Virus record (IMG/VR): IMGVR_UViG_3300020411_002967
Location: 1 to 24,346 of that record
From: a virus
Length of the DNA: 24,346 nucleotides
Reading direction: 5' to 3' (one strand)
Part shown: in pieces, positions 789-17,802 of the stretch
Position numbering within the stretch: position 1 is the first letter of the stretch
Layout: each line of letters begins with the position of its first letter
The notes under the pieces: generated by a model
Told to the model about the DNA's origin: nothing
Databases searched by the model: none
Seen by the model: only the letters and a program-made list of their open reading frames with translations
Position numbers and translations under genes: made by a program

Positions 789-828
789 GTGCTAAATATT
801 TCGATGTATGATTATTCCTAGAAATAGG

Positions 829-836
829 TATAAATA
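829..836 (+). promoter_or_regulatory. T4-type late promoter (TATAAATA) for the baseplate block
   Basis: The exact octamer TATAAATA is the consensus late promoter element read by the T4 gp55 sigma-like factor with gp33 and the gp45 clamp. It lies 34 bases before ATG 871 of gp25 and directly downstream of an intrinsic terminator, which is where a late operon should start. Initiation would be expected a few bases downstream, leaving a leader of about 25-30 bases. The site is inside a longer possible N-terminal extension of gp25, which argues against that extension. Confidence 0.8.
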
Positions 837-870
837 TATTAAGAAAACTGTTTATTTTTCTATATTTCAT

Positions 871-1269
871 ATGAATACGAGGATATCTAGATCATTTAAA
901 GATATAAGTTTATCCTTTAATGCTCATCCAATTACGAAAGATCTTACAATAATTAAGAATGAGAATGCAATTAAGCGATCTGTAAGAAATTTAGTCCAAA
1001 CTATCCCTAAAGAGAGGTATTTTAACCCTATTTTAGGGACTGATATCATTAATACTCTATTTGATTTTGTTGATTTTGGTACTGCATCCAATATTCAACG
1101 CCAAATTGAGATCACAATTAATAATTTTGAACCAAGAGTTGAAAATTTAGATATAGAAGTGATTCCTAGACCCGATGATAACCAATTTGAAGTAATTATT
1201 CATTATGATATCATTGGACAACAGTTTCCTAGCCAAGAATTTTCCTTTTTATTAGAAGCTACGAGATAA
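871..1269 (+). CDS. gp25: Baseplate wedge subunit gp25 (sheath initiator), gpW/gp25 family
   Basis: The protein is 132 residues from ATG 871, the same length as T4 gp25. It has the family layout: an early FNAHPITKDL segment, a helix with IKRSVRNLV, a PF.....G.D-like stretch (YFNPILGTD), a helical SNIQRQIEITINNFEPRV segment with the conserved EPR motif at residues 87-89, and a final beta hairpin. gp25 caps the inner baseplate and provides the template on which the contractile sheath polymerises. The frame stays open upstream to ATG 808, but that would add 21 residues unlike the family and place the late promoter inside the gene, so 871 is preferred. No strong ribosome-binding site is visible. 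gp6 follows after one base. Confidence 0.93.
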   Translation: MNTRISRSFKDISLSFNAHPITKDLTIIKNENAIKRSVRNLVQTIPKERYFNPILGTDIINTLFDFVDFGTASNIQRQIEITINNFEPRVENLDIEVIPRPDDNQFEVIIHYDIIGQQFPSQEFSFLLEATR

Positions 1270-1270
1270 T

Positions 1271-3241
1271 ATGCCTATTACTAAATTTACAAACCTAGAT
1301 TTTGATCAAATTAAGACATCTATTAAGGATTATCTTCGGGCAAATTCAGATTTTACTGATTTTGATTTTGAAGGTTCTAACTTTTCAGTTTTAATTGACA
1401 CTCTAGCATATAATACCTACATTACAGCATTCAATTCTAACATGGTTGTAAACGAATCCTTCTTGGATTCAGCAACTGTTAGGCATAATGTGGTATCTCT
1501 AGCAAGAAACATTGGATATGTACCACGTTCTAGGACAGCAGCAAAGGCATCTATTACATTTACAGTGGATATAGATGTATTATCTACTGTAGATAGTTTA
1601 GTACTAAAAGCAGGTCTAGTATGTACTGGAAATCAAGATGATAGTTCGTATATATTTTCTATTCCTGATGATATAGAAAGACCAATTATAGAAGTTAAAG
1701 ATGAAGTAACGACTCAAATAACAAGAAAATATGCTACTTTTTCAGAAATTGATATTTACCAAGGAAATTACTTAACTAGGACATTTCAAGTAGATGGATC
1801 TTTAGATCAGAAATTTTTGTTAGATAATCCAAATATTGACACATCTACATTAGTTGTATATGTTAATAATTACGATTCTACGTCTCAAAGTTATGATTTT
1901 AAGAGTGGAAGAGGTACTTTATATAAAAAAGTAGATAATATTTTAGATATTGATAAAGATTCTACAATTTATTTGCTTCAAGAAGTACAAGATGAAAAAT
2001 ATGAACTTCTTTTTGGTGATGGTATTTTTGGTAAGAAAATATCAAATAATTCTATTATTACAGTAAGTTATGTTATTACTGATGGTGCTGCTGGAAACGG
2101 TCCAGGAGGGTCTGCAGGAGCACAAGGAGTATTTCTATTTAATGGTACTTTAACAAGCACTACAGGGGCATTAGCTGTTCCTTTAACCACACCTACTATA
2201 ACAACTGTAAATCGTGCAAGTAATGGTGGAGAGATAGAATCAATAGACTCTATTAAGTATTATGCCCCAAGACTCTATTCTTCTCAATATAGAGCAGTTA
2301 CTGCACGGGATTATGAATCAATAATACAGCAAATTTACCCAAATACAGAGAGTGTTTCTGTAGTTGGAGGAGAAGAAGTAGATCCACCTCAATTTGGAAC
2401 TGTTTTTATTACAATAAAACCAAAAAATGGCGAATTTGTGTCTGATTTTGATAAATCAAAGATACTTTCAGATTTAAAAAATTATTCTTTAACTGGAATT
2501 AACCAAAAAATCGTAGATCTTAAAATATTATACATTGAAGTTGATAGTTCTGTTTATTATAACAGTTCTAAAGTCGAAGAAATCAATGATTTGCAGACAA
2601 GAGTTGTAAATAGTCTATCTACTTACTCAAAATCATTAGATCTTAATAAATTTGGTGGAAGATTTAAATATAGTAAGGTTTTAAGTGTAATTGATAATAT
2701 TGATGAGTCAATTACATCAAATATAACAAAAATTAGAGTTAGAAGGAACTTAAATGCCCTTATTAACCAATTTGCACAATATGAATTATGTTTTGGTAAC
2801 GAATTTAATGTTAAAAAGGAAGGTCTTAACATTAAAAGTACTGGATTTACTATATCTGGATCATCAGATATAGTTTATTTGACAGATACACCAAATATAG
2901 ATGAAAAAACTGGAATAATTTCAATTGTTAAGAAGGATATTATTGATTCTACAAAAACAATTGTTGTTGAAGAAGCAGGAACTGTTGATTACATAAAAGG
3001 TGAAATTAATCTAACTACAATTAACATAACATCAACAGTAAAACCTAATAATATAATTGAGGTTCAGGCATTTCCAGAATCGAATGATATTATTGGTCTT
3101 CAAGATTTATATCTCCAATTTAGCATTTCTGATAGTACAATAAATATGGTTAAGGACACTATTACTTCTGGAGAACAAATATCTGGAGTTGGGTTTAAAG
3201 TTACATCAAGTTATACAAACGGAGATTTAATAAGGGTATGA
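1271..3241 (+). CDS. gp6: Baseplate wedge subunit gp6 (baseplate J-like)
   Basis: The 656-residue product is close to T4 gp6 (660). Family marks are the N-terminal FEGSNFSVLIDTLAYNT region with LARNIGYVPRS downstream, YELLFGDGIFGKK (FGDG at 248-251), and the hallmark SQYRAVTARDY (338-348) followed by YPNTESVSVVGGEE...P..GTVFITIKP. In T4, gp6 dimers form the continuous ring that joins the wedges around the hub, and their rearrangement drives the hexagon-to-star change during contraction. The gene is one base after gp25, and its stop overlaps the next ATG (ATGA at 3238-3241), so translational coupling with the giant gene is likely. The last ~150 residues are beta-rich. Confidence 0.93.
   Translation: MPITKFTNLDFDQIKTSIKDYLRANSDFTDFDFEGSNFSVLIDTLAYNTYITAFNSNMVVNESFLDSATVRHNVVSLARNIGYVPRSRTAAKASITFTVDIDVLSTVDSLVLKAGLVCTGNQDDSSYIFSIPDDIERPIIEVKDEVTTQITRKYATFSEIDIYQGNYLTRTFQVDGSLDQKFLLDNPNIDTSTLVVYVNNYDSTSQSYDFKSGRGTLYKKVDNILDIDKDSTIYLLQEVQDEKYELLFGDGIFGKKISNNSIITVSYVITDGAAGNGPGGSAGAQGVFLFNGTLTSTTGALAVPLTTPTITTVNRASNGGEIESIDSIKYYAPRLYSSQYRAVTARDYESIIQQIYPNTESVSVVGGEEVDPPQFGTVFITIKPKNGEFVSDFDKSKILSDLKNYSLTGINQKIVDLKILYIEVDSSVYYNSSKVEEINDLQTRVVNSLSTYSKSLDLNKFGGRFKYSKVLSVIDNIDESITSNITKIRVRRNLNALINQFAQYELCFGNEFNVKKEGLNIKSTGFTISGSSDIVYLTDTPNIDEKTGIISIVKKDIIDSTKTIVVEEAGTVDYIKGEINLTTINITSTVKPNNIIEVQAFPESNDIIGLQDLYLQFSISDSTINMVKDTITSGEQISGVGFKVTSSYTNGDLIRV
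3139..3146 (+). promoter_or_regulatory. Possible late promoter element (AATAAATA) inside gp6
   Basis: AATAAATA matches the relaxed NATAAATA form of T4-like late promoters and lies 91 bases before the start of the 4298-residue gene. In such AT-rich DNA a single match is weak. Its credibility comes only from the rarity of the ATAAATA core elsewhere in the window. Confidence 0.3.
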
Positions 3242-6200
3242 TATCTACTGGTATTGATAAAAGAGTTCAAATTCAGCAAATAGTTGATAATCAACTTCCT
3301 CAGTTTGTATTATCAGAAAGCCCAAAAGCAGCTGATTTTTTAAAACAATACTATATTTCTCAGGAATATAGTGGTGGTACAATTGATATTACAGATAATC
3401 TCGACCAATATTTAAAATTAGATAACTTAACACCTGAAGTAATTGTTGGAAAAACAACTTTAGATGTTAGTATAAATTCTACTGATAAAAATATTACTGT
3501 TAATAGTACAAAAGGATTTCCTAATGAATATGGACTATTAAAAATTGGTGATGAAATAATAACTTATACTGGAATTACAACTAATACTTTTACAGGATGT
3601 GTTCGTGGATTTAGTGGAATAACAACATATCAGGATGATAATAATCCAGGAGAATTAATTTTTTCAGATACTACTGCATCATCTCATGATGCTACTTCTG
3701 AGATTACTAATCTTAGTGTATTATTTTTAAAAGAATTTTCTAAGAAATTAAAATATAGTTTAACTCCTGGATTAGAAAATGTTGATTTTGTTAGTAATCT
3801 TAATGTTGGTAATTTTATAAAAGAAGCAAAATCATTTTATCAATCAAAAGGTACTGAAGAATCATTTAGAATATTATTTAATGTATTATATGGATATGAA
3901 CCTAAAATAATTGATCTTGAGCAGTATGTAGTTAAGCCATCTTCTGCAAAGTATATTAGACGTGATAGAATTGTTGCTGAAAAAATAAAAGGAAATCCTT
4001 TAAATTTAAAAGGACAGACAGTTACTAGATCTACAGATTCTACAACTACTGCATCTTTATCTGAAGTTCAACCAGTTTTAGGTATTTCTGGAACAGGGGT
4101 AAGTACATCAACTAATTATTATATCCTAGATGCTTTTATAGGATATAATGATGAAGAATTCATTACAGGAACATTTGATGTTACTGGAAAAACGAAAGTT
4201 ATAGGTGATGTACCGATAGACTCAGATGTTATTACAGTAGATTCTACTATTGGTTTTGGTAATACTGGCACTATTATATCTGGTATTAATACTAATATTA
4301 CATATACTGATAAAACAATTAATCAGTTTTTAGGTGTATCTGGTGTTAATAATCCAATTTCTTCTCAAGATTCTATAAGAGATGATGATTATATTTTTGG
4401 ATATGAAAATGGAGATTTATCAAAAAGAGTAGAATTAAGAATTACTGGTATTTTATCTAAATTTATTCCTGATTCTAATAATAGGTTATCTATAGAAAAT
4501 GAATCTGTTATTGTTAAAAGTATTGGAGAAAAAATAGGAAGTTCTGAATTTACTTCAAATAAAAGTATATTTGCAAATTCTTGGCGTTATAATACATCTA
4601 TAACTTATCAGGTAGATGAATTCTTTTGGAAAGATGTAACTCAAGATGATAGTGATATTACTGAAGATGAAAATAATATTATCACAAAATATGATTCAAA
4701 TGGATCTATAATAGGAAGATATTATCAAACATCAGAATTTAGAATGAGTGAAACTCTTTCTAAAAAGTTTGATTTAGTTGGTCTCTCTGAAGGAGATTTT
4801 GTTGAAATTGTAGAAAGAGTTTCCAATCCACTTCAACCAAAAAAAGTTATTACTAGTAATGATGGAAATGTAGTTACTACTATTTCTAAAATAATAATTG
4901 GTAATGATATTGAAAGAAGTAAAATTCAAGTAACTGATGGACCATATGATCTTGATATTGGTAAGAAATATGATGTAAGAAAGGTATTAACTAAAGCATC
5001 TAGTACTGGAGTTCCTATTAAATATGGAAATAATAAATTAACATCAGATATACAAAATGTATATAATGATTCTGATGAAAACTTATATGTAGCATCTAAT
5101 TGTTTACCTTCATATGAAATCCAAAAAAATATAGCAACAATTGGTATTACTACAACAAATACTAATACTCTACAGGGATATAATCCTGTAACTGAAAAAT
5201 ATTCAGTAATATCATTTACTACTCAAATACCGTTTATTACAGGAGATGCTGTATATTATAAACCAGACAATACTGATAATCCACTTGTAGGTCTAGATGA
5301 GGGTATTTATTATGTAAAAAGTATTCCAAATTTTAATAACAAGATTAATCTATATTTGTCACCATCTTTTATAGCATCAGATGAGAAACTTTCAACTCCT
5401 AATAACTTTATAGAATTTGGTATGCCAACCGTATCTGAAGGGCATACGTTTACTTTACTAGCACATTTTAATAAACAAGTTGAGTCTCAAAATTTATTAA
5501 AGAAATATCCAATAAATCCTTCATTAAAAACTGGAGAAAAAGAAAAAACTATTCCTGGTTCTGTTGGAATGTTGATTGATGGTGTTGAAATTATTAATTA
5601 TAAATCTGATGACAATATTTTTTATGGTCCATTAGATAAATTTTCTGTTTTAAGTCAAGGAACTGGATATGATGTAATAAATCCACCTCAGATTGACATT
5701 TCTTCAGGAATAGGATCAACAGCATTAGTTAGACCTGTTGTTACTGGAAAACTTGAAGAAATTTTAGTAGATCCTCAAGAATTTGATATTGAAAATGTAC
5801 TTTCAGTTAAAATTACTGGTGGTAATAGTAAAAATATTTCCCTAGAACCTATACTCAAAAGGGTAAATAGAGAATTAAAATTTGATGGTAGATTGAAAAC
5901 TGCAAATGGTGGTGTTGATAATCAAGAAGAAACTATAGATTTTGGAAGAAAACATAATTTAAAAAGTGGGCAAGTATTAATTTATGATAGAAATAATAAT
6001 GAACCGTTAGGTATTACAACTTGGGGTGGAAGTAATGCTGATGCATATCAATCTTTAACTCAAGGTGAATCATATTGGCCTGAAGTAGTTGGATTAACAA
6101 CTATTAGACTTTTTAGTAATGAATCTGATTACAATAGTGGTATTAATACTATAGCATTTACTTCTATTAGAAAATCAGGAATTCATAAATTTAGACTAAA

Positions 6201-9200
6201 AAATTCAAAAAATAGTTTAAAAACTGTTAAAGTTGTAAAAACATCTGATGCTGATAATTCTTTCACTAATCGTGAAATATATGTAAGACCAAGTGGAATT
6301 TCAATATCTGATTCTGTAATTACTTTTGAGAATCATGGATTTTCTGAAGGTGAAGTTATAAGTTATACAACTATTCCTGGTATTGGTGTTACCAATCCTA
6401 CTACAATTAGCGGATTATCTACTTCAAATCAATATAAGGTTCTTAAACTAAATGATAACTCATTTAGACTTGCTGATGTTGGAATAGGAAATACTGTAGA
6501 TAGTAATTATATTTCTAATACTTATGTTAGATTAAATTCTGTTGGTACTGGTTATCAAGTATTTAAGTATCCAGATATTGAAATAACATCCGAAATAACA
6601 TATTCAGTAGCAACATCAGAAAAAGTTGTTTTTACTCCTGTAATAAAAGGACAAATAAGTGATGCAATATTATATGAAAAGGGATCTGATTATGGTGCTC
6701 AAACAGTTATAAATTATGAAAATAAACCAAGTATTACCCTAAAAAATGGAATTGGTAGAGCAGGAAAAAATATACAACCATCTTTAGTACCAATAATTGA
6801 TAATAGTAAAATAGTTGCTGTAAATATTCAAAATGGTGGTGCAGAATATTATTCTGTTCCTAATCTTGATATAAAGGGTGATGGATTTGGAGCAAAATTA
6901 AGACCAATAGTTGATAATGATCCAAATTCTAAAACTTATTTGTCAATTATTGATGTAAAAATTCTAAATGGTGGATCAGGATTTAGTACAAGTAACACAT
7001 CTATTAAAGTAAAACCATCTGGATCTAATGTTGTTTTTGATTTAAATATTAGAAAATTACCTATAAACAATATACAAACTTTAGAAAATTTTAATTTAAA
7101 ATACACAAGTGAAATATTACAAGATTCTGTATATGGATTAAAATATGCTACAGTTGGATATTCTACAGCTATTGGTTCAGAATACTTTAATGATCCAAAT
7201 CCTATTACAGGACATTCTCCAATCATTGGATGGGCTTATGATGGAAATCCAATATATGGTCCATATGGGTATAGTGATCCAACAAATACAAATGAAATTA
7301 AAGTTTTACAATCCAGTTATGTTTTAAATTCTTCTAATATTGATAATAGACCTGATATTACAACATTTGGTACTGGATTCTTTGTAGATGATTATGTTTA
7401 TGATCCTTCTGTAGGAGATTTGGATGAACATAATGGTAGATATTGCAAAACACCTGAATATCCTAATGGTGTGTATGCATATTTTGCATCAGTAAATGAT
7501 AATGTAGGTGGAGAAAAACTTCCAAAATTCCCTTATTTTATTGGTAATACTTATAGATCAAATCCAACTGTTGTAGATAGTGAATCTAAAATTACACAAT
7601 CTTTTGATTTTAATAATTCAGATTTAATAAGAAATACTACTCCATATAGAATATCTGAAGAATTTAGTAATAATGATTTTATAATTGAATCTGATAAATT
7701 TATTAATCAAAAAACAATTGTAGAATCAGTAACTCGTGGAAATGTAGATGAATTGATTATTACTAATTCTGGTGATGATTATAAAATTGGCGATAGTTTA
7801 GTTTTTGATGAATCTAACAGTGACGGATCTGGATTAAGTGCAAGTGTTAATTCTATAGAAGGTAAACCAATAATTGATATTGAAACAGTATATGAAGAAT
7901 ATCAAAACGTTAAATTAGTTTGGGATAATTCTAATCAAGTATCAGCATATATTTCAACATATCATGATTTGATTGGTGCAAACCATATTCAAATTTCTGG
8001 CATTTCAACAGATATTGCTAATCTTAATAAATCTCATGTTATTGGTGTTAGTTCAGAAACTACTGTTTTGTATTCTGCAGTTGGTACTGGTGTTGCTGTA
8101 ACTGATATTATTGTTGGTAAAACTGAGTTAATTTCTGTAGGTAGTAGTATAGGGATTGGTACAGAAGTACTATCAGTTCTTAATAAATTTGAAGATAGAA
8201 ACGTATTAAGGTGTGAAAGAGGTCTTACTGGAACTGCACATACTATATCTTCTATAGTTAAGTTACTTCCAAATTCATTTACTTTACCAGTAGAAACTGA
8301 TTATTTTGATTCTGAATTAGATAATATAGTTTATTTTAACCCTAAACAATCTGTTGGTAAAGAATCAACAGCTGGTCTTTCAACCTCAATAGTTGTTACA
8401 GTTGCTGGTATTGCTAAATCAATTTCTATACCTGCCCAGAGCATATATCTTCCAAATCATGGATTTAAAACAGGAGATCGTTTAATACTTAAAGAACCTT
8501 CCAATACTGGATTTACTAATATTGGTGTATCTACTAATGGAATTCCTGGTAGTGGTAGTCCTACTAGTATTGGGCATGATGATGTTGTATATGCTATTAA
8601 TAAATCTAAAGATTTTATTGGTATTGTTACTGATCCATCTGTAATTGGATCTGGAGATACCTCAGGTAAAGCTTCTGGACTATTCTTTGTTGGAGATGGT
8701 GATAATAGTTTTAAATATTCATTTAGAAAAGAAAACAATCAAGTAACTGCAACAGCAGAAAGAATTATATCAAATGTTTCAGTTTCTACTTCTCATGGAT
8801 TGCAGAAAAATGATAGTATTAATTTAGTAATCAAACCATCTAAATCTATTGGTATTGGAAATTCTACTGCAATTAAAGTAAAATATAATTCTATAAAAGA
8901 TAAATTATTAATTAATCCTATTGGGTTTAATTCCACTGGAGTTAATACTACTACAAATATATTAACTATTAATTCTCATGGATTTAAGACTGGTGATAAA
9001 GTATTTTATGATAATACTGATGATGATATTATTGGTGGTTTAAGTACTACTGGTTATTTTGTTTATAGAGTAGATGATAATAAGATTAAATTATCAAACA
9101 CTTATTACGATTCTACTATAACACCACCTAAAGTTGTATCATTAACATCAATAGGTGGAACTTCTCATGAATTATCATTAATAAATCCACCAATTAATGT

Positions 9201-16164: not shown

Positions 16165-17802
16165 ATGGCAGCAATTGTAACAGATCAATTTAGAATTAAT
16201 AATGCTAGTAATTTTTTGGGGGATATTAATGATACCTCAAACTCGTATTATGTGTTTGTAGGGTTATCAAATCCTGGTATTACTGCTAGTGGTACAATTC
16301 CTGCATATGGTAGAGCAACTAGTGATGCTAATTGGAACGCTGATGGTACTAGACCAAATCCTATCGATAATATTAATTATTTAAATCATAGTAAAGATAC
16401 TATGATTTTTGGTAGAAAAATTAATATCGATAATGCCAGAAGAGTTATTAGAAAACAGACTTGGACTAAAGGCACTCAGTATGAAATATATCGGCATGAT
16501 TATAGCGTTAATAATCTATCTCCAAAAACAAAATCTTCTAGATTATATGATGCAAAATATTATGTAATTAATAAAGATTTTAATGTTTATATTTGTATTG
16601 ATAATGGTTCCTCAGGAATTAATACTGAAGGAAATTTATCACAAAATGAACCTTTATTTACAGGAGTAGAACCATCTGCTGCTTCAGGAGATACTGATGA
16701 TGGATATATTTGGAAGTACTTATTTACAGTTGCTCCAAGCGATATTATAAAATTTGATGCAACTGAGTATATTCCTTTACCAAATAATTGGTCAACATCT
16801 ACAGAAGCTCAAATAGAATCTGTTAGAGATAGTGGAAATTCTGATATTAATAATAATCAGATTAAAAAAGTATATATTGAAGACCAAGGTAATGGATATG
16901 GTGGTTCAACAGGACAAGAATTTCCTATTGTTGGAGATGGAAGTGGTGGAAAGGTTATTGTTGATGTTATTGGTACCAAGATAACAAATACTCAGGTTTC
17001 TGTTGGTGGTCAAGGATATACTTATGGTATGGTTGATTTAAGTAATATTTCATCTGGTGTACCTGCTGGAACAAAGGCAAAGTTAATTCCAATTATACCT
17101 CCTTCAAAGGGACATGGGTATGATTTATATAAAGAATTGGGTGCAGATAGAGTTTTAATTTATGCTAGATTTGATGATTCTACTAAAGATTTTCCAATAG
17201 ATTCTAAATTTGCACAAATTGGAATAGTTAAGAATCCAACTTCAATTGGTTCAACCTCAATATACACTCAAAACCAATTTTCTTCAGTATCATCATTATA
17301 TTTAAATTCATATACTGCTGTTCCTACAGTAGGTTCAATAATTGAACAAGATATTAAATCTGGTGGTGTGACAATTGGTAAAGCAAGAGCTTATGTTGTT
17401 TCATTTGATGTTATTTCAGATACTGATAAGATTGCTGTTATGAAATATTATCAAGATAGATCTTTATATTTTAATCAGACAACTGCTGATCAAACTGATA
17501 GAGCATCTATTAGTGAACTTGGAGATACTACTGGAAAAATTTACAACTTCCAATCTACTGAGGATGATAAAGTTAAATTAGTTGGTACAACAAATCTCTA
17601 TACTATAGATACTTCTTTTTCTGGCATTACTACCAATCCAACTGGTAATAAGGTTATTGAACTTGGAGTTGAATTTGAAAAAGGAATCTCTTCATCTGAG
17701 ATAAATAATCAGTCGGGTGATATTATCTATTTGGATAATAGAGCATTGATCACTAGAGATAAAAGACAAAAAGAAGACATTAAAGTAATCCTGGAATTCT
17801 AA
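16165..17802 (+). CDS. gp8: Baseplate wedge subunit gp8, enlarged
   Basis: The 545-residue product opens MAAIVTDQFRINNASNFL and shows the T4 gp8 pattern: an N-terminal TD.FR....NF segment, YYVFVGLS.P with a P.YGRAT-like loop, the RVIRKQTW segment, and DDGYIWKYLFTVAP followed by TEYIPLP (about 177-202). This last stretch matches the GDGYVWEYLFEIPP...EYI.VP of T4 gp8. In T4, gp8 (334 aa) is a dimeric wedge protein of two beta-sandwich domains that contacts gp10 and gp7. The extra length here is largely C-terminal to the core and contains two GxGY modules (NGYGG at Y245; GQGYTYG at Y285) like those of the neighbouring giant proteins. There is no strong ribosome-binding site, so a short leader from the 16139 promoter is likely. 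The next gene starts three bases after its stop. Confidence 0.88.
   Translation: MAAIVTDQFRINNASNFLGDINDTSNSYYVFVGLSNPGITASGTIPAYGRATSDANWNADGTRPNPIDNINYLNHSKDTMIFGRKINIDNARRVIRKQTWTKGTQYEIYRHDYSVNNLSPKTKSSRLYDAKYYVINKDFNVYICIDNGSSGINTEGNLSQNEPLFTGVEPSAASGDTDDGYIWKYLFTVAPSDIIKFDATEYIPLPNNWSTSTEAQIESVRDSGNSDINNNQIKKVYIEDQGNGYGGSTGQEFPIVGDGSGGKVIVDVIGTKITNTQVSVGGQGYTYGMVDLSNISSGVPAGTKAKLIPIIPPSKGHGYDLYKELGADRVLIYARFDDSTKDFPIDSKFAQIGIVKNPTSIGSTSIYTQNQFSSVSSLYLNSYTAVPTVGSIIEQDIKSGGVTIGKARAYVVSFDVISDTDKIAVMKYYQDRSLYFNQTTADQTDRASISELGDTTGKIYNFQSTEDDKVKLVGTTNLYTIDTSFSGITTNPTGNKVIELGVEFEKGISSSEINNQSGDIIYLDNRALITRDKRQKEDIKVILEF
17700..17707 (+). promoter_or_regulatory. Possible late promoter element (GATAAATA) inside gp8
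   Basis: GATAAATA fits the NATAAATA late promoter form. It lies 98 bases before the start of the DUF4815-like gene, within the last 35 codons of gp8. It could supply extra transcript for the large downstream gene, but this is a motif match only. Confidence 0.35.

Follow-up and report, generated by a model that had tools for sequence, protein, structure and literature searches.

The YHYH domain (Pfam PF14240) has already been annotated and discussed in phage tail and baseplate proteins (PMC7824862, PMC7029224). The passages of PMC7824862 dealing with the domain describe a conserved histidine triad together with an aspartate, which are predicted to bind Zn. Cellular copies were taken from the phyla of a Chitinophagaceae record (G007; matches in 39 of 395 genomes) and of a Gammaproteobacteria record (G006; 28 of 398). 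The alignment comprised 57 cellular copies, 54 of which cover the histidine region. Three histidines are invariant in all 54, a single one being followed by YHxH; the tyrosine of the latter motif is present in 53 of the 54 copies and its third letter is a tyrosine in 35 and a histidine in 15. According to fragment scans the invariant histidines are situated in the N-terminal half of the domain, at approximately Pfam positions 65 and 75-78, and the aspartate of the block xDGxPIYG is present in 57/57 copies. The invariant triad and the aspartate agree with the statement on the YHYH domain in the passages of PMC7824862. Based on this conservation the H...YHxH of the N-terminal half, and not the Y-x-Y site of the C-terminal half, appears to be the eponymous motif.

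Seven further loci among the genome contigs (L082-L087, L090) contain long gp7-type ORFs in metagenome-assembled genomes and were treated as phage and left out of the cellular set. These genomes are labelled Flavobacteriales, Gammaproteobacteria, Euryarchaeota and Betaproteobacteria, and the loci are probably misbinned cyanophage contigs. A search of plasmids detected two proteins with a YHYH annotation and no closer match.

The window, i.e. the whole stretch of 24,346 bases of a virus record that was analysed here, harbours a T4-like baseplate gene cluster on the plus strand (Table 1), the gene order of which corresponds to that of P-SSM2 and S-SRM01. The ORF of 4298 aa shows a full-length match to its phrog family and is located between gp6 and gp8; it encodes a gp7-like baseplate wedge protein, and the virus is of the marine cyanophage type. 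Upstream of gp25 a small ORF (267-593) of unknown function matches DUF7936 (E 5.4e-15) and phrog_7802.

T4 gp7 itself is absent from such phages according to the relevant passages of PMC7029224. A profile of the region around SFYQSKGTEESFRILF compared with the PDB resulted in a weak match of 35 residues to T4 gp7 (9f4a, residues 728-761; E 0.0073), and with a match of this kind we do not claim membership of T4 gp7 for the window protein. Judging from this motif, the wedge core could lie close to the N-terminal end, most of the gp7-like protein then being extension.

Table 1. Predicted features of the baseplate gene cluster and of the YHYH segment in the window.
Feature	Position	Strand	Basis or remark
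gp25	808-1269	+	
gp6-like	1271-3241	+	
gp7-like baseplate wedge protein, 4298 aa	3238..16134	+	phrog_2885, residues 2-4284, E 0; P-SSM2 gp25-gp6-gp7-gp8 order
Short motif SFYQSKGTEESFRILF, approximately residues 193-227	3814..3918 (approximate)	+	Weak T4 gp7 match
LKYATVGYS, residues 1301-1309, approximately at the site of GxYHYHGNP	7138..7164	+	Placed by eye, without significant homology
YHYH domain, C-terminal half, residues 1325-1421	7210..7500	+	Pfam PF14240, profile positions 92-184 of 193
HSPIIGWAYDG block with H1326 and the family-invariant Asp D1335	7213..7245	+	
LDEHNGR block; H1398 at a site often Cys in cellular copies	7420..7440	+	
YAYF, residues 1413-1416; ordinary Y-x-Y site of the C-half	7474..7485	+	
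gp8-like	16165-17802	+	
Long reading frame running off the window end	from 17806	+	

Positions 7201-7554, which represent residues 1322-1439 of the single open gp7-like ORF, had been assigned to the YHYH family in an earlier note, and both the family blocks and the YAYF are present there as described. The profile search indeed returned PF14240 (E 2.5e-25; 90 bits at a Pfam cut-off of 25), far beyond chance. Of the roughly 193 positions of the full-length profile the second half alone matches, and by these profile data the domain of the window is a genuine PF14240 domain represented by its C-terminal half only. The window copy possesses the invariant aspartate of xDGxPIYG and lacks the three histidines of H...YHxH. 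Not a single histidine was detected across the 140 residues upstream of the domain, and residues 1181-1450 contain just two, H1326 and H1398. The proposal that YAYF represents the lost eponymous motif does not hold, the match starting at profile position 92 and the invariant histidines lying at about positions 65-78. The domain had also been called a central insert in a virion protein; it does reside in a virion-type protein, at about 31% of its length, so that "central" is a loose description.

It had further been assumed that a YHYH once stood at the site of the YAYF and lost its two histidines in this phage protein. In the 57 cellular copies the C-half site reads YHYH in 9, YAYF in 11, YGYY in 7, YAYY in 7 and YCYF in 4 copies, besides others. 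The cellular YHYH at this position is mostly found in a short subclass carrying YHYH at both sites (L101, L128-L133), which is what speaks for such a derivation. However, YAYF also occurs in histidine-complete proteins of bacteria (L134, L115) and phages (L189 and the L163 ORF), and in the tree described below gp7 copies fall into one starred group together with Bacteroidota-type and other phage copies. Taking furthermore into account that YHYH is confined to 9/57 cellular copies, the derivation by histidine loss at this site is hardly tenable, and YAYF, which is the usual reading in the related proteins of bacteria, cannot serve as a sign of loss. At the C-half site the phage rows with an intact triad carry YAYF, FAYF or FAYY, so YAYF is compatible with a complete histidine site; the loci fetched from cultured phages show YAYF and, in a few cases, YAYY, YAYH, YGYF or YCYF. 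Since the separate three-histidine YHYH proteins of phages show YAYF too, the YAYF of the window was most likely inherited.

Practically every cultured cyanomyophage carries the half-domain (about 460 records). Relatives of the YHYH segment were detected in 463 cultured phage records, nearly all of them cyanophages and one an Actinomycetia record, and relatives of the gp7 N-terminus in 461 records of nearly the same phages. Among the 73 gp7-type rows compared, one of which was the window's own locus again, none has the histidine triad (0/73; 0/72 independent) and all have the aspartate (73/73). A motif scan of the gp7-type regions revealed no YHxH, and the only instances of Y-x-YH were four YAYH, all of them located at the C-half site. 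Because the predicted metal-binding histidines are absent in every gp7-type copy compared, the histidine-free gp7 YHYH represents a widespread, probably non-catalytic version of a known domain and not an oddity of one virus. The suspected loss of a metal site is consequently borne out as far as the predicted histidine ligands are concerned, here and in the 72/72 gp7-type copies, yet not by way of the YAYF argument: it is the N-terminal half that is missing. The pairwise dN/dS within the gp7 YHYH domain amounts to approximately 0.27-0.56, indicating purifying selection, which is no stronger than on the flank.

In a profile-profile comparison of the gp7 family with the cellular copies the C-half reached a probability of 99.9% and the upstream part 0.1%. 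The gp7 proteins of S-RIM8, ACG-2014d, S-BM3 and S-PM2 can still be aligned with a portion of the N-half, in which other residues stand in place of the histidines. This suggests that the gp7 half-domain arose by decay of a full-length domain. The tree of the C-half does not prove such decay, since it is built on 103 columns and support is scarce, with stars on 15 of its 89 inner branches. In this tree 28 of the 32 gp7 copies cluster in a single starred group, and a starred group of 75 unites gp7 with the other phage and the Bacteroidota-type copies. The remaining four gp7 copies are positioned outside the main gp7 group, so that gp7 may have acquired the module on more than one occasion. At least 8 changes of the triad state are required on the tree, a number that is indicative only, and the alignment is too short to tell in which direction the domain was transferred.

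The earlier note had also raised the question whether phage copies lack the histidines as a group. This applies to the gp7 copies but not uniformly to the phage proteins outside gp7, where 17 of the 40 rows covering the site have an intact triad, several of these rows being closely related to one another. In ACG-2014d, for instance, a protein of 587 aa with GHARQNGEYHYH is encoded directly after gp7, and the search of viral contigs revealed many proteins with an intact triad and GHPEQNGEYHYH. The triad is partly or wholly replaced in the non-gp7 phage copies L203-L224 (e.g. YHR in GYPETTGQYHYRD and TFD in GTPNTNNQYFYDD), and the loss of histidines is therefore not confined to gp7.

Three of the intact proteins, with lengths of about 580-596 aa (L163:19863-21626 of ACG-2014d, L172:2848-4635 and L179:2827-4563), show sub-threshold C-terminal matches to alpha/beta hydrolases, namely to an NCBIfam PHA depolymerase in L163 (E 6e-6, below the cut-off) and to Abhydrolase_2 in L179 (E 0.0075) and L172 (E 0.047). 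Fusions of a YHYH domain with a putative hydrolase are thus possible in these proteins.

In phages such as ACG-2014d there may be a division of labour between the half-domain in gp7 and the intact neighbour. Such a division is not obvious for the relatives of the window, since S-SRM01, P-SSM2, S-SKS1 and S-T4, its nearest relatives, each show a single YHYH-matching place and seem to lack an intact neighbour.

Structure models were generated for the gp7 segment and for the intact phage copy L189. The AlphaFold model of residues 1195-1451 (59 sequences) reached a mean pLDDT of 72.6 and a pTM of 0.55, with good prediction of the beta repeat upstream and of the larger part of the C-half (pLDDT of the C-half block about 82-92) and poor prediction of the stretch between them; the model of L189 (29 sequences) reached a pLDDT of 86.7 and a pTM of 0.87. 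Foldseek searches with both models against the PDB gave no credible match, so fold analogy does not decide on the function. Sequence searches against solved structures gave hits at chance level only for the segment (E 0.34 and 0.38) and for the intact phage copies (E 0.83); the whole protein had no hit. In the structure-side viral library the strong matches include YHYH or baseplate proteins, some of them of giant viruses. Given the confident model of L189 and its lack of a credible PDB match, the YHYH domain may represent an unsolved fold.

Based on the sequence comparisons the C-terminal half of the YHYH domain has probably long been an established part of the extension that the gp7-like wedge proteins of cyanomyophages carry. 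Its role there would most likely be that of a folded block with a structural or binding function, not that of a metal enzyme. The ancestral domain would have been complete, with its histidines in place and of the Bacteroidota-like (YAYF) type, and would have lost its N-half by decay after its capture into gp7. The surviving C-half would have been retained because it packs inside the wedge or makes contacts at the rim of the baseplate. The structural or binding role previously suggested for the window domain is plausible.

For phage YHYH domains, tail and baseplate fusions included, the pertinent passages of PMC7824862 predict metal-dependent hydrolase activity by which the cell envelope is digested. 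All gp7 rows have retained the invariant aspartate of the predicted Zn site, but no gp7-type copy has any of the three predicted histidine ligands, and neither H1326 nor H1398, the histidines remaining near the window domain, is invariant across the family. As the predicted ligands are gone from the window copy, a function as metal enzyme seems highly unlikely for it, even though a metal site formed by other residues of the gp7 segment is possible.

The half-domain could alternatively serve as a host-contact module binding a surface glycan or another receptor, a variant that falls within the non-catalytic reading. The YHYH domain is grouped with carbohydrate-binding and host-recognition domains in the respective passages of PMC7029224. 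Moreover, the module tracks the host group, since its carriers are cyanophages, apart from the one Actinomycetia record, whereas the gp8 homologues (512 records) extend to phages of other hosts. However, this correlation may reflect plain descent, the sequence of the half-domain is strongly conserved across phages, where a fast-evolving receptor-binding tip would differ, and no lectin-like fold was found for the gp7 segment in the PDB search. A role in host contact is possible but rather unlikely.

Returning to the structural or binding block, it may tentatively be speculated that a YHYH metalloenzyme acting on the envelope was absorbed into the wedge protein of cyanomyophages and became a histidine-free half-domain, a pseudo-enzyme within the contractile apparatus, with a separate active copy among the neighbouring virion proteins being kept or lost depending on the lineage.

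The passages of PMC7824862 and PMC7029224 on the domain contain no statement that the gp7 copies are histidine-free half-domains. The finding is a useful correction and concerns an ordinary kind of degeneration. It corrects the location of the histidines in YHYH proteins and limits the proposal made in the passages of PMC7824862, in that the copies fused to gp7 lack the predicted Zn ligands; the intact separate phage copies are worth assaying. As no solved relative was found, a single experimental structure would serve the family in bacteria, phages and giant viruses.

Compared with the known systems, the window shares its gene, the neighbourhood and the histidine-free YAYF module with the gp7 of the cyanophages P-SSM2, S-SRM01 and S-PM2 (phrog_2885), although the identity within the segment is about 35-50% and some copies keep more of the N-half. 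The cellular PF14240 proteins of Bacteroidota (e.g. L088, L089, L115) have the C-half blocks HSPIIGxAxDGxPIYG and LDxxNGRxxxTPEYPxG and the YAYF/YCYF site in common with the window, but they are non-virion proteins of 340-820 aa that have kept the N-half with H...YHxH, of which no recognisable counterpart exists in the window. The separate intact YHYH proteins of phages (the 587-aa protein of ACG-2014d and the L189 type; phrog_2576) have the domain and its YAYF site as in the window and, unlike the window, are full-length with GH(P/A)xQNGEYHYH and encoded by a gene of their own outside gp7.
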